Translations under genes and position numbers: made by a program
Notes under the pieces: model-generated
What the model was told of the DNA's origin: nothing
The model's database searches: none
The model's input: only the letters and a program-made list of their open reading frames with translations
Assembly: GCA_020721345.1 (NCBI GenBank)
Contig: DYMX01000002.1
Location: 1 to 49,142 of the forward strand
DNA: 49,142 nt
Direction: 5' to 3'
DNA from: Sulfurovum sp.
GTDB taxonomy: Bacteria > Campylobacterota > Campylobacteria > Campylobacterales > Sulfurovaceae
Part shown: piece by piece, positions 198-10,121 of the stretch
Position numbering within the stretch: position 1 is the stretch's first letter
How the letters are laid out: every line of letters begins with the position of its first letter

Positions 198-213
198 ATC
201 AATATATCTTGAT
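198..213. promoter_or_regulatory. candidate ArsR operator upstream of arsR
   Basis: ATCAA-N6-TTGAT is an imperfect dyad with 14 of 16 positions symmetric. It lies 42 bases before the arsR start, just upstream of two possible -10 elements (TATTAT at 221-226 and 232-237). ArsR/SmtB repressors bind such AT-rich dyads over or next to the promoter they autoregulate. A related dyad precedes the sulP gene at 1954-1971. Confidence 0.5.
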
Positions 214-255
214 TTATTAATATTATTCTGCTATTATTCCTAAAAAAGGAGTTTT

Positions 256-567
256 ATGGAAATATTTTTACAAACGATAGGTTCGCTCAATGATGAAACG
301 AGAGTTCGCATACTTGGATTTATAGACCAAAATAAAGAAGTTTGCGTATGCGATATAGAAACTTCATTTGACATGATACAGTCACGCATATCAAGACACT
401 TAAAAATTCTAAAAGATGGTGGTTTTTTAAAGGTTGAGAGAAAAGGTGTATGGGCGTATTATAGTGTCAGAAATCCGCTCGATGAATTTCGTCAAAGTAT
501 CCTAAAAGAGATAAGCTTTTTAAATATTGATATTCCAAAATTAAATAAAGGATGCAAAAATGGATAG
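256..567 (+). CDS. arsR: ArsR-family metalloregulatory repressor
   Basis: A 103-residue winged-helix repressor of the ArsR/SmtB family. The motif EVCVCDIE (about residues 28-35) matches the ELCVCDL metal site at the start of the recognition region of arsenite-sensing ArsR proteins, with two Cys as As(III) ligands. QSRISRHLKIL is the DNA-recognition helix. A strong Shine-Dalgarno (AAAAAGGAG) sits 5 bases before the ATG. The stop overlaps the aquaporin start, so the two are translationally coupled. The dyad at 198-213 suggests autoregulation. The arsenic assignment is supported by arsC two genes downstream. Confidence 0.9.
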   Translation: MEIFLQTIGSLNDETRVRILGFIDQNKEVCVCDIETSFDMIQSRISRHLKILKDGGFLKVERKGVWAYYSVRNPLDEFRQSILKEISFLNIDIPKLNKGCKNG

Positions 568-1246
568 AAGATATATTAGTGAATTTATCGCCACATTCAT
601 AATGATTTTTGCCGGTTGCGGGGCTATAATTGTTGATGCCATTACCGGAAGCTTGGGGCATGTTGGCATAGCTCTTACTTGGGGGTTTGTGGTCGTTGCG
701 CTCATATATACTTTTGGGCATATAAGCGGGGCTCATATGAATCCGGCTGTTACCATCGCATTTACTTTAACGAAAGAGTTTGATAAAAAAGAGTTAGTGC
801 CATATATATCTGCTCAACTTTTAGGCGCTATTTTGGCTTCTTTAGTTTTATATTTCCTATTTAATGAAGAAGCAAATAGCTTAAGAGAGCTTGCATATCT
901 TGGCGCTACACAACCAAAAGGCTCACAACTTCAATCGTTTATTTTAGAACTTATATTGACATTTATATTAATGATAGTAATATACGGAAGCGCTGTTCAT
1001 GGAAAAGCTGCCAAATCATTTGCCGGACTTGCTATTGGTCTTACTGTTGGGCTTGAGGCGATGTTTGCAGGACCTATCACAAATGCGAGTATGAATCCGG
1101 CGAGATCAATTGCTCCTGCTGTTATCAGTGGAAACCTAAATGATTTGTGGCTATATATAGTTGCTCCAATATTTGGGGCGATAGTAGCTGGGCTTGTTTT
1201 TACAAACTTTATAAAATGCAAAAATCCGGATGAATGTTCTATCTAA
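560..1246 (+). CDS. aqpS: MIP-family aquaporin, AqpS-type arsenite channel
   Basis: A 228-residue channel of the major intrinsic protein family with six predicted membrane helices and both canonical NPA boxes: MNPAVT (about residues 60-65) and MNPARS (about 178-183). It starts inside arsR (8-base overlap) and is followed closely by arsC. In Sinorhizobium meliloti an arsR-aqpS-arsC operon lets the arsenite made by ArsC leave through the aquaporin down its gradient, and the same order here suggests the same job. Water or glycerol transport cannot be excluded from sequence alone. The channel is family-certain; the substrate is inferred from context. Confidence 0.85.
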   Translation: MDRRYISEFIATFIMIFAGCGAIIVDAITGSLGHVGIALTWGFVVVALIYTFGHISGAHMNPAVTIAFTLTKEFDKKELVPYISAQLLGAILASLVLYFLFNEEANSLRELAYLGATQPKGSQLQSFILELILTFILMIVIYGSAVHGKAAKSFAGLAIGLTVGLEAMFAGPITNASMNPARSIAPAVISGNLNDLWLYIVAPIFGAIVAGLVFTNFIKCKNPDECSI

Positions 1247-1260
1247 AAAAGGAGAAATAG

Positions 1261-1806
1261 ATGATGAAACAAAGTAAAATTCCGTTAACGGACAAAAAAG
1301 TATTAGTTTTATGTACAGGAAACAGTTGCAGAAGTATCATAGCAGAGGCTCTAATAAACGCCAAACTTGACGGTATTGAAGCTAAAAGCAGTGGAGTAAG
1401 AGCAAGTGGAAAAGTAAATCCTAACGCAAAGAGATTATTAGAAGAAAAAGGGATTTGGAAGGATGAATATCACTCAAAAGTGCTTGATGAAGTAATAAAC
1501 GATGATTTTGATTTAATAGTTACCGTTTGCGACCATGCAAATGAAAGTTGTCCTATGTTTCCACGACCAATCCCCAAAATCCATGTAGGTTTTGAAGATC
1601 CTGATGGAAAAGGTTATGAGGCATTTGAAGCAACTTATAGAGAGATAGAAGAGGAGTTATTACCAAAAGTAGTTGAGTTTTTTGAGATAAAAAAAGAAGT
1701 CTCAAAGTCAAACGAAGGCGTTGATATAAAATTTAGCGGTTTTGTAACCAAAGAGAAGATCGAAACCATGGTAAACAACTCAAAAGCGGACAATGTGAAT
1801 GCATGA
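1261..1806 (+). CDS. arsC: Thioredoxin-coupled arsenate reductase with a C-terminal extension
   Basis: Low-molecular-weight phosphatase fold enzyme that reduces arsenate to arsenite. The P-loop CTGNSCR (C18-R24) is the CX5R nucleophile loop. Two further cysteines, C90 and C97, are spaced by seven as in the disulfide relay of the Bacillus/Staphylococcus ArsC, and D112-P113 provides the general acid. The protein is 181 residues against about 130-140 for the family. The extra tail (about 148-181) carries a VDIKFSGFVTKEKIE segment that resembles the next small ORF. SD AAAAAGGAG; the ATG at 1264 is an alternative start. Its stop overlaps the next ORF as ATGA. Confidence 0.92.
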   Translation: MMKQSKIPLTDKKVLVLCTGNSCRSIIAEALINAKLDGIEAKSSGVRASGKVNPNAKRLLEEKGIWKDEYHSKVLDEVINDDFDLIVTVCDHANESCPMFPRPIPKIHVGFEDPDGKGYEAFEATYREIEEELLPKVVEFFEIKKEVSKSNEGVDIKFSGFVTKEKIETMVNNSKADNVNA

Positions 1807-1943
1807 GCGATACCACAAAAATGAAAATTTCAAATATGGAAGTTGCCGGCAAAAACGGTGATGTCAAGCTTGCGCTTAGCGGCGATATAAGCGAAGAGGA
1901 GATAAAAGAGGCGCTTGGCAAATCAAAGGTAATTGATAATTGA
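1803..1943 (+). CDS. 46-aa small protein translationally coupled to arsC
   Basis: A short ORF whose ATG overlaps the arsC stop (ATGA at 1803-1806). It is Lys/Glu-rich and has no cysteine. Residues 21-42 ([20 protein letters not shown], then SK) align without gaps to residues 154-175 of ArsC: 7 identities in 22 positions and mostly conservative changes elsewhere, predicted as strand-turn-helix. This suggests a duplicated module, once fused to ArsC and once free. The pattern also recalls the last strand and helix of small Thioredoxin_3-type proteins, but without their CxxC. No function can be assigned. Coupling and the similarity argue that it is a real gene. Confidence 0.55.
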
Positions 1944-1953
1944 TAATAAACCA

Positions 1954-1976
1954 ATCAAAGAATTATTTGATATAAT
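1954..1976 (+). promoter_or_regulatory. sulP promoter with an ArsR-like operator
   Basis: ATCAAA-N6-TTTGAT (1954-1971) is a perfect 6-base inverted repeat whose last base overlaps a consensus -10, TATAAT (1971-1976). The sulP ATG follows 25 bases later with SD AAAGGAG. The half-sites match those of the dyad upstream of arsR (ATCAA/TTGAT), although the spacing between them is two bases longer here. A repressor bound here would block the -10, giving sulP its own arsenic-responsive promoter. Confidence 0.5.
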
Positions 1977-2001: not shown

Positions 2002-3492
2002 ATGACACAAAAACTAAAACAAGAGTGGTTTAGCAACACTAGGGGCGATATTCTCTCTGGACTTGTCGTAGCACTTGCACTTATCCCTGAAGCTATTGCT
2101 TTTAGTATCATAGCAGGAGTTGACCCCAAAGTTGGGCTATACGCCTCATTTTGTATCGCCTTGGTTATCTCATTTGTCGGTGGAAGAGTTGGAATGATAA
2201 GTGCCGCTACAGGCGCGATGGCTTTAGTAATGGTAATGCTTGTGAAGGAGCATGGATTGGAATATCTTTTGGCAACAACGATATTGACAGGTATTATCCA
2301 AATAGCGCTAGCTTATGTTGGAGTGGATAAACTTATGAGTTTTGTTGCGCGTGCTGTAATGGTAGGATTTGTGAATGCACTAGCAATTCTCATATTTGTA
2401 GCTCAACTTCCAGAGCTTACCAATGTCACTTGGCATGTTTATGCACTTACGGCTTTAGGGCTTGGAGTGATCTATCTATTTCCCTATATCCCAAAACTAG
2501 GCTCGTTTCTCCCCTCTCCGCTTGTGAGTATTGTTGCTGTGACACTTGTGGCTATTTTTTGGGGTGTGGATGTGCGAACAGTTGGCGATATGGGAGCTTT
2601 GCCGGATAGCTTGCCTATATTTTTACTCCCTGATGTGCCTCTAAATTTTGAGACTTTGTCTATCATATTTCCTTATGCATTTGCGCTGGCTTGCGTAGGA
2701 CTACTTGAGTCCCTAATGACTGCAACGATAATTGATGATATGACTGATACAAAAAGCGATAAAATGATGGAGGCTAGAGGACAGGGGATTGCAAATATTG
2801 CCAGTGGATTCGTGGGCGGTATGGCAGGGTGCGCAATGATAGGACAATCGGTCATTAATGTAAAATCAGGCGGCAGAGGCAGGCTGTCTGCTTTGACCGC
2901 CGGACTGGGTCTTTTAATACTTGTAGTTTTTATGAGCAATATTATCTCCATAATTCCGATGGCATCACTTGTTGCGGTTATGATAATGGTATCTGTTGCA
3001 ACATTTGATTGGAGTTCTATCAAAAAGGTAAAAACACTTCCGCTTTCAACGAGCATGGTCACATTTACCACGATGATGGTCACGATTTTGACGCACAATC
3101 TAGCGCTTGGGGTACTCTCAGGCGTACTTTTAGCATCGCTCTTTTTTGCAAACAAAATTAGCCATTTTATGTATCATGAAGAGCATTATGAAGATGGTGG
3201 CAAAACCAAATTTTATAAAATTGTGGGGCAGGTATTTTTTAATAGTTCTAATAAATTTGTAGATATTTTTGATTTTAAAGAGGATGTTCAAAAAGTCATT
3301 ATTGATGTTTGCAGAGCGCATTTTTGGGATATATCAGCAGTTTATGCGCTTGATAAAACTGTCTATAAATTGCGAAAAGAAGGTAAAGAGGTAGAGATAA
3401 GGGGACAAAATGAAGCAACTGCTACGATTATCGATAGATTTGGAGTCCATGATAATCTGGAAGAGATAGAAAAAATTATGGGCGGGCATTAA
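2002..3492 (+). CDS. SulP (SLC26-like) anion transporter with STAS domain
   Basis: A 496-residue secondary anion transporter. The N-terminal signature [20 protein letters not shown] and [12 protein letters not shown] are characteristic of SulP carriers. About 10-14 hydrophobic helices run to residue 400, followed by a cytoplasmic STAS domain (about 410-496). Substrates in the family include sulfate, bicarbonate and other oxyanions, and the sequence does not decide between them. It follows the ars genes by 58 bases and has its own promoter with an ArsR-like dyad, so an arsenic link is possible. It converges with the K+ channel gene 21 bases downstream. Confidence 0.85.
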
Positions 3493-3513: not shown

Positions 3514-5205
3514 TTATGCTTTACTAAAAAGATTTTTTAATACAGAGTATTCTTTGCCAAAATAAGCAAATTCAAACTCATGAAAATTGTTTGCGATAAG
3601 CTCGATCTCTTCTTTGGCATGCTCATCGCATCCTATGAGTACAATATCGTCCTTTTGAAGCTTTTCTTCCCAAGACGGAAGCATGATCTCCTTGCTTCTT
3701 CTAAGTATCATAAAGACAAAAACATTATTAAGATGATCTTTATCTTTTAAAGACCGGCGAAGCATATCAAGGGTTATGGTTGTTTTATTTTCAAGCCTTC
3801 TAAAGAGCTCAAAGCTCTCATTTTTGGTAACTTTAAGTTCAAAAAGAATAGGATTTTTATCTATATCCAAAAGAGTCTTTATAATGCTTTGAGCATCTTT
3901 ATCGCTAAGAATATCTAGATTTTTAACAAATACATCGGCACTTGGTCGTATGATGGCATTGATCGTTTTGTCGATCAATATGCGTGACGGCATAAGGATA
4001 TGGTCTATTTTATCTGTTTTGAATATAGAAAAATCCTCCATTTCGTTTTCTCTAACAATTGTTATAATATTTGGATTTAGCTTTTTAGCAGTAAGCGCTA
4101 TTGAGAGGTTCACCGTATCGTTCTTGGTGCCTACGATGATATATTTTGCCTGCTCTACCCCGACGCCGGTAAGCGCTTTTTTATCATAACTTTCTACATA
4201 CTCTACGTCATTTTTCCCATCATCTGTAAGATATTTTAACTTAGCTATATCTTTTTCTATGCACTTTATTTCTAAACCATTTTCTTTTAGAATTTTATAT
4301 ATAACCTCTCCCATCCTTCCAAAACCGCACATCACATATTTGCCGGGGGAAAATCTCATAAATGAGCCTGTTAGTTTGCTTGAGCCGTATATCCATCTCT
4401 CAAGCTTGAGCAAGTGTGGATGATTTAGTGCTTTGTTTGTCTGCGACGCTATGATATCAAATGGATTCTCTACGATATCAACTCCAAAATCCTGCAAATT
4501 TTCAACCCCGGCCTGAGTGGTTGATTTGACGGCCAGTCTTACTTTGGGATTTAAAAGTTTTGCGGTCAAGGCTATTCTTGTATTTAATGCGTCGTCCTGA
4601 AAAAGCGAAACAACAGCCTTGCAGTATATTGAATTGATTCCTGCCATCTCAAGGGCTTGCGGGCTGTATGCGTCTATATTTAGCGCGGGAACAGGAGGAG
4701 TAAAGTTCTCTAGCAGTAACTCATGTACTTTTGCTTCATCTTTCTCTATCACTACAGCTCTTATGCCGCTATCAAGCGCTTTTTTGATAATTTCACTTGT
4801 TATAAGATTGTATCCTAAGACTAAGATATATTTTTCTTTTAAATTTTTTATCTGTCTTTTAAACCTGTTCTTGGCAAGCTCCTGAATAAAAAGTTTGTCT
4901 TGAAGCAAGGCCACTAAAGAGCCGATGCCGTAGAACCAGCCTAAAACATTAAAATATATAGAAAAACTTACCCACATTCTTTGAGGATAAGTAAAAGCAT
5001 AAGGTATCTCTCCAAATCCGATAGTTGTTGCGGTATATGTAATAAAATAAAAAGCATCAAAGATGCTCATGTGATATATTTTGCCGCTATTATCTAAGCC
5101 TGGGATAATAAGCATACCGATTATTGAGACAGTATAGGTTGTTACGATCACCAAAAATGGCGTTCTCATCCTTTGTAAAACTATCCAAAGAGAGCTGTTT
5201 TCCAT
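3514..5205 (-). CDS. Potassium channel with two TrkA-N/RCK domains
   Basis: A 563-residue two-helix K+ channel. Membrane helices lie at about residues 14-36 and 77-100, flanking the pore loop with selectivity filter TIGFG (61-65), a variant of TVGYG. Two Rossmann-type RCK (TrkA-N) domains follow. The first begins KYILVLGYNLITSE (about 125) and the second KYVMCGFGRMGE (about 290), each with a regulatory C-terminal part. A tandem RCK in one chain, as in GsuK-type channels, implies gating by nucleotides or ions. The start ATG lies 9 bases after the stop of the neighbouring upstream small membrane protein gene, so the two form an operon. Confidence 0.85.
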   Translation of the reverse strand: MENSSLWIVLQRMRTPFLVIVTTYTVSIIGMLIIPGLDNSGKIYHMSIFDAFYFITYTATTIGFGEIPYAFTYPQRMWVSFSIYFNVLGWFYGIGSLVALLQDKLFIQELAKNRFKRQIKNLKEKYILVLGYNLITSEIIKKALDSGIRAVVIEKDEAKVHELLLENFTPPVPALNIDAYSPQALEMAGINSIYCKAVVSLFQDDALNTRIALTAKLLNPKVRLAVKSTTQAGVENLQDFGVDIVENPFDIIASQTNKALNHPHLLKLERWIYGSSKLTGSFMRFSPGKYVMCGFGRMGEVIYKILKENGLEIKCIEKDIAKLKYLTDDGKNDVEYVESYDKKALTGVGVEQAKYIIVGTKNDTVNLSIALTAKKLNPNIITIVRENEMEDFSIFKTDKIDHILMPSRILIDKTINAIIRPSADVFVKNLDILSDKDAQSIIKTLLDIDKNPILFELKVTKNESFELFRRLENKTTITLDMLRRSLKDKDHLNNVFVFMILRRSKEIMLPSWEEKLQKDDIVLIGCDEHAKEEIELIANNFHEFEFAYFGKEYSVLKNLFSKA

Positions 5206-9167: not shown

Positions 9168-10121
9168 TTACATCCAGCCTTTTCTTTTAAAGATATAAAG
9201 TGGAGTAAACGCCGATATAAGCATCAAGGCTACCGCAAAAAGGTACCCATATCCCCAGCCAAGTTCAGGCATAACCTTGAAATTCATCCCATAAACACTT
9301 GCGATAAGCGTTGGCGGAAGAAACACAACATTTACTATGGTGAACAACTTAACGGTTTTATTTTGTTCGATAGAAAGCATACCCAAAAAAATGCTTTGAA
9401 GATAGTCAAGCCTTTCAAAGTTGAAATCCGTATGTTCTATAAGGGATTTTATATCTTTGAGCATGATAAGCACATCATCGCTTTGCTCCCTAAAAGCCAA
9501 TGATTTTAAAAGCGATGTAAGAATCCTCTGTTTATCTGTAAGATTCTCCCTGATCTTCATATTGAAATCTTCAAATAATGAGATTTTTTCAAGTATCTCT
9601 TCGTCATCATTGGTATAGTCTGTAAATACGTGGCGTCTTAGCTTGACAACTTCTTTTGATAGATTTTCAATAGCATCTGCATCTGCATCTATCCTGATAT
9701 CCAATATCTGAGAAAATATCTCAAAACCATCTTTAAACTCTTTTGGAGTCGATAAAAACCTTTTGCTGAATTTATCAAATGTATGGAGTTCTTTATATCT
9801 TATGGAAAAAAGGAGTTTATTTTGCAAAATAAAAGATACAGTTTCATTGTACGGGTTTGCTTCATTTGCTATCAAAAAGTAGCTGTTAATCTCTATTCTG
9901 TCATTCTCTTCCCAGTATCTGGAGCTTATTTCTATCTCTTCACTCTCTTGTTTAGTAGGGAATTTGATATCAAACATATCTTCAATTGCCAAAACCTCTT
10001 TTCTGGTAGGTCTGAGCATATCGATCCACATAACATTTTTTTGCTGTTTTGATTCCTGGAGTATTTCAAGGCTTTTTATGATTTCGAGTCTATGCCCTGT
10101 TTTAACATAACACTTTACCAT
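9168..10121 (-). CDS. corA: CorA-type magnesium/cobalt transporter
   Basis: A 317-residue CorA family channel. A large cytoplasmic N-terminal domain leads through a long helix into two C-terminal membrane helices; the first ends in the signature YGMNF (about residue 279), which is the Mg2+ selectivity filter. The charged C-terminus (FKRKGWM) is typical. SD AAGGAGG precedes the ATG. It sits between pcm and dedA in a minus-strand run with small gaps. Confidence 0.93.
   Translation of the reverse strand: MVKCYVKTGHRLEIIKSLEILQESKQQKNVMWIDMLRPTRKEVLAIEDMFDIKFPTKQESEEIEISSRYWEENDRIEINSYFLIANEANPYNETVSFILQNKLLFSIRYKELHTFDKFSKRFLSTPKEFKDGFEIFSQILDIRIDADADAIENLSKEVVKLRRHVFTDYTNDDEEILEKISLFEDFNMKIRENLTDKQRILTSLLKSLAFREQSDDVLIMLKDIKSLIEHTDFNFERLDYLQSIFLGMLSIEQNKTVKLFTIVNVVFLPPTLIASVYGMNFKVMPELGWGYGYLFAVALMLISAFTPLYIFKRKGWM

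Follow-up and report, generated by a model that had tools for sequence, protein, structure and literature searches.

A conserved predicted ArsR operator at the front of a Sulfurovum ars unit and the probable standing of the sulP gene behind it

Transporters encoded in ars operons have been surveyed across about 2,500 strains, in which ArsB, ArsY, ArsP, MFS, MIP and rarer types were described, and all 18 MIPs of that survey occur without a second transporter (PMC4435449). The arsR-aqpS-arsC operon of Sinorhizobium meliloti resembles the locus described here in that ArsR, a MIP channel and ArsC are encoded together in a run with neither an ArsB nor an Acr3 pump (PMC4435449, PMC4531530), but it belongs to a different phylum, and in our locus, where the function of the MIP channel is predicted, a sulP gene comes next. 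The ars operon of Campylobacter jejuni, probably of the same phylum, is likewise ArsR-controlled, and ArsP-like genes occur in the ars runs of relatives of our locus, whereas SulP is unmentioned in the passages of the survey drawn on here (PMC4435449). The words SulP and sulfate are absent from the survey text that we searched, so that SulP goes unnamed there as a transporter type (PMC4435449). An ars operon has also been described in Nitratiruptor, of the same phylum, and the available text of that paper contains neither 'sulfate transporter' nor 'sulfate permease' (PMC10092412). In Agrobacterium, ArsR control reaches beyond the ars operon to anion-transport genes (pst/pho), as had been proposed for the anion transporter here; that control was demonstrated with mutants, whereas our transporter has no operator-like site upstream (PMC7965956). 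A literature search for SulP together with ars genes returned no title or abstract opening that we recognised as reporting a link, many matches being other words that begin with 'sulp'.

The window, that is, the whole 49,142-nucleotide stretch of Sulfurovum sp. DNA that was analysed, starts at a contig end in a genome of 1.24 Mb. Its first genes, all on the plus strand, are arsR, a MIP channel gene, arsC, a 46-aa ORF and sulP, and their features are as follows.

194 to 217, no strand: predicted ArsR operator, a 24-bp palindrome with core ATCAA-N6-TTGAT at 198 to 213; matrix score 34.1
209 to 237, plus strand: predicted arsR promoter, TTGATT - 17 - TATTAT with TG before the -10, by consensus match only
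256 to 567, plus strand: arsR
560 to 1246, plus strand: MIP (aquaporin-type) channel gene
1261 to 1806, plus strand: arsC of the LMW-phosphatase type with a C-terminal extension
1803 to 1943, plus strand: 46-aa ORF that encodes, in a different frame, the latter half of the ArsC extension
1922 to 1937, no strand: ATCAA-N6-TTGAT dyad within the 46-aa ORF, in codons of KSKVID; matrix score -11.5
1954 to 1971, no strand: ATCAA-N8-TTGAT dyad before sulP; matrix score -21.1
1966 to 1976, plus strand: TTTGATATAAT, extended -10-like element of the predicted sulP promoter
2002 to 3492, plus strand: sulP, with Sulfate_transp and STAS domains

The window's ArsR carries both a winged-helix ArsR domain and the CVCD motif that binds arsenite in E. 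coli ArsR, as expected of an arsenite sensor. The presence of both Sulfate_transp and STAS places the transporter in the SulP family, whose members carry sulfate, bicarbonate, dicarboxylates and other substrates. The sulP gene also has the layout of an ars operon member, sharing the strand of the ars genes across an upstream gap of 58 bp, and the stretch from arsC to sulP (1806 to 2002) has no predicted terminator-like hairpin.

To define the operator we fetched 60 ars regions from the same family as the window and built a matrix from the 55 ATCAA-N6-TTGAT sites that they contain; these training sites were preselected for exact half-sites, so the matrix favours exact half-sites. The family consensus is a 24-bp palindrome, ATATATCAA[TG]ATAT[AC]TTGATATAT, with a fixed N6 spacer: across the 60 regions N6 accounts for 55 sites, while every other spacer from 0 to 14 occurs 0 to 5 times. 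Within 150 bp upstream of arsR the N6 form is present in 25 of 60 regions and the N8 form in none. When each region was left out of the matrix in turn, a site scoring at least 19.9 was recovered in 53 of 60, the remaining seven scoring at most 1.1, and three regions without an exact dyad (L073, L109, L121) nevertheless score 25.8 to 29.5. The operator usually precedes the first gene of the ars run, be it arsR or arsC, and loci outside the training set, for example L127 and L136, reach scores of 31-37 in their ars runs.

The dyad at 198-213, ATCAATATATCTTGAT, has both the N6 spacing and the N-ATAT-N centre of this consensus, and a site of this type is conserved before arsR in relatives. Its exact core, ATCAANATATNTTGAT, has the arsR site as its sole genome occurrence among the matches listed. 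The preliminary description had read this dyad as an ArsR-like operator, and the score and conservation bear it out; judged from sequence, we regard the conservation in relatives as decisive for its assignment as the ArsR operator. The predicted arsR promoter overlaps it with its -35-like hexamer. In the closest relative (G036; L068, 842-2875), PstS- and PstC-like genes, named by eye, are divergent from the ars run, and the operator lies between arsR and the phosphate transporter.

Dyads are present before both genes, as the preliminary description had claimed, with N6 at 198-213 and N8 at 1954-1971 (ATCAAAGAATTATTTGAT). TATAAT at 1971-1976 comes after the latter and shares its last position, in agreement with the -10 overlap proposed earlier. 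A third dyad, ATCAAAGGTAATTGAT at 1922-1937, had been overlooked; it is spaced like the arsR site yet falls inside a reading frame, its letters being the codons of KSKVID at the end of a conserved peptide. In the closest relative the KSKVID residues are identical and the DNA letters nearly so. The family operator combines N6, an N-ATAT-N centre and conserved outer arms, and the two sulP dyads never do: the 1954 dyad has an N8 spacer, and the 1922 dyad has N6 but the centre AGGTAA. Their scores of -21.1 and -11.5 rank 594 and 88 among 49119 window positions. With N8 in 0 of 60 arsR upstreams, we rejected the view that the 1954 dyad is the operator with altered spacing; the score of the 1922 dyad and its place in coding sequence led us to reject it as the genuine operator of sulP. 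FNR-type sites, whose motif is TTGAT-N4-ATCAA, were set aside as a reading of the half-sites, which have the opposite orientation.

Dyads of this kind are not rare, and those of ATCAA and TTGAT with N5-9 number 65 in 1.24 Mb; the window holds four with N4 to N8 against 0.94 in shuffles. The form ATCAAA-N6-TTTGAT occurs five times in the genome, the 1954 dyad alone being intergenic, and we recognised by eye no common function among the ORFs that hold the other four. TTTGAT, the right arm at 1954-1971, forms with the letters that follow it the sole perfect TTTGNTATAAT in the window, an extended -10 of the kind that Campylobacterota promoters favour. Nowhere in the window are half-sites packed more densely than at 1922-1971, where 50 bp hold five; 1 of 200 shuffles reached this density, a statistic chosen post hoc. 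This cluster is unusual, and it is explained in part but not fully.

A search for the dyad upstream of sulP in related genomes returned no N6 or N8 form. ATCAA-N3..10-TTGAT is absent from the 300 bp upstream of all 13 family orthologs (0/13), and neither the N6 nor the N8 dyad occurs within 400 bp upstream of 80 further sulP loci (0/80; three have upstream stretches shorter than 400 bp), where the best matrix score is 7.0. The only ATCAA/TTGAT dyads of any spacing within 400 bp among these 80 are in L158 (N5) and L190 (N4). An ArsR-type site is thus not conserved before sulP orthologs, and a genome-wide operator search placed none before any SulP among the matches listed. Three same-genus loci (L010, L011, L018) share a GAGATTGATAYATT stretch about 55 bp before sulP, with a best operator score of 7.0, below every accepted site.

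The ars-sulP neighbourhood, on the other hand, recurs. Among 32 Campylobacterota-type loci, there are nine (L127, L130, L131, L135, L136, L148, L151, L152, L158) in which an arsR lies no more than about 9 kb from sulP, against 0.30 expected (P about 4e-11 if the loci are independent, a value that is too small since relatedness is uncorrected); five or more linked loci would have P about 1.5e-5, again for independent loci. The expectation is this low because almost all genomes contain just one close arsR (one in 27, two in 2, none in 3). The 32 are L127-L156, L158 and L165 of the 80 loci and include L127, whose record is named Desulfosporosinus; the other 48, left out of the count, are from Gammaproteobacteria, Bacteriovoracaceae and others, seven of them with weak ArsR-like matches of 26-40% identity. 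The L130 arsR lies just past the fetched stretch and was placed by contig coordinates, and L152 is the same contig as that of G066. The family's other SulP group (40-46% identity), taken as control, is arsR-linked in 2 of 90 (G089, G093; hand-counted full-length rows, linkage by row comparison; Fisher P about 8e-5 against 9/32). The contrast is weak when the family is taken by itself, with 2 of 14 sulP orthologs linked and 12 unlinked (P 0.087), and in G036, which has the closest ortholog (90%), sulP and the ars run are on separate contigs.

In two of the linked loci sulP lies within a same-strand ars run that ends in arsR and has one front operator scoring 37.3, and no plus-strand terminator-like site was found in the gap before sulP in either. 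The L127 run reads arsC, CHR-like, arsP-like permease, metallo-beta-lactamase-like, thioredoxin-like, CDF-like, sulP, arsR; that of L136 reads metallo-beta-lactamase-like, arsB, a second arsC-like gene, arsC, arsP-like permease, sulP, USP-like, one more gene and arsR (CHR, CDF, metallo-beta-lactamase, thioredoxin, USP, arsB and arsP names here and below were read by eye from sequence). L152, of the window's genus, has arsR, arsB, arsC-like, arsC, arsP-like and thioredoxin-like genes with sulP last. In L158 arsR is immediately 5' of sulP, and the matrix recognised no operator there. A distance of 3-9 kb separates sulP from the ars genes in L130, L131, L135, L148 and L151, mostly with the ars genes on the opposite strand, so that read-through cannot explain these loci.

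The preliminary description had proposed that shared half-sites let one ArsR bind before both genes and so control both units, in which case ArsR would repress sulP directly from 1954-1971 or 1922-1937 with relaxed spacing. The same half-sites, one dyad with the correct N6, the density of the cluster and the overlap of the 1954 dyad with the predicted -10 all speak for this, but scores of -11.5 and -21.1 against 34.1 and the lack of such a site before 13 family orthologs and 80 others make direct repression very unlikely. The two-base difference in spacing, raised earlier as a caveat, itself counts against a sulP operator, N6 being fixed in relatives and N8 found in 0 of 60. Alternatively, the cluster could be the site of a different regulator unrelated to arsenic, as its density and the solitary intergenic position of the 1954 dyad might suggest. 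This is distinctly unlikely, however, for the cluster is conserved before no sulP ortholog examined and consists in part of coding sequence and promoter. There is a small but real chance, though it is still unlikely, that sulP is an independent housekeeping gene with no arsenic response, beside ars genes by accident. Its own predicted promoter fits that idea, as does the absence of arsR linkage in 23 of 32 loci and 12 of 14 family genomes; against it stand a linkage far over expectation and over the control SulP group, and the position of sulP inside the ars runs of L127 and L136.

The account that we consider probable is that the single operator at 194-217 controls the ars unit, that the sulP dyads are not operators, and that sulP is served by its own predicted promoter together with read-through. 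The dyads are excluded as ArsR operators because spacer, centre and outer arms mismatch and orthologs lack such a site. By analogy with the ArsR family, ArsR bound at 194-217, across part of the arsR -35 region, would repress arsR-MIP-arsC, and arsenite would release it from the operator. The 1922 dyad would then be the coding end of the ArsC extension, and the 1954 dyad in part an ordinary extended -10 promoter. Transcription of sulP would come from its predicted promoter and from the ars unit, read-through being possible because the arsC-sulP gap has no predicted terminator-like hairpin. Any arsenic response of sulP would most likely arise through operon membership rather than a second operator, although its good -10 element counts the other way and independent transcription may occur. 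We read sulP best as belonging to the ars unit, at its distal end and with some independence. Its earlier placement in an arsenic regulon thus fails as regards an ArsR operator of its own, and may hold by way of read-through, in line with sulP genes in or near the ars runs of several Campylobacterota.

Having a defined operator for the family's ArsR, instead of a guess based on half-sites, makes the arsenic regulon mappable in these mostly uncultured sulfur-cycling bacteria. If sulP is indeed co-induced with the ars genes, anion transport would be tied to arsenic resistance in organisms of sulfidic waters, any role that SulP has in arsenic stress being an inference. A broader scenario, which we hold unlikely, is that SulP was recruited repeatedly to ars operons in Campylobacterota, behind a single front ArsR operator; the recurrent neighbourhood itself is observed, and it is speculation that the protein moves an anion of importance under arsenic, be it arsenate, sulfate for thiol synthesis or a thioarsenate formed where habitats are sulfidic.

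The extension of ArsC offers a separate observation. The ars runs of relatives encode an 85-90-residue domain with an NCxxGxCxCM motif, fused to ArsC or standing alone (L068 4017-4673, L079 and 26 other loci); the motif is present in 28 of 28 domain sequences compared, and the domain was matched in 62 of 150 family genomes. Searches of this domain against Pfam (best E 0.009, below the cut-off), NCBIfam and PDB gave no convincing match, and our guess is that its three cysteines might bind As(III). In the window the domain is split over two frames at about 1773-1806, where arsC stops early and the Cys-motif frame runs into the 46-aa ORF, which may reflect either a real frameshift or an assembly error.

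Most sulP orthologs are followed directly 3' by a USP-like (universal-stress-protein-like) gene (L129-L206), the place of which is taken in the window, at 3514-5205, by a convergent K+-channel-like gene, named by eye. In G093 the gene for the other SulP is followed at a short distance by a carbonic-anhydrase-like gene, again named by eye (L067, reverse strand, 9171-9920 of the turned locus), which would fit bicarbonate transport.
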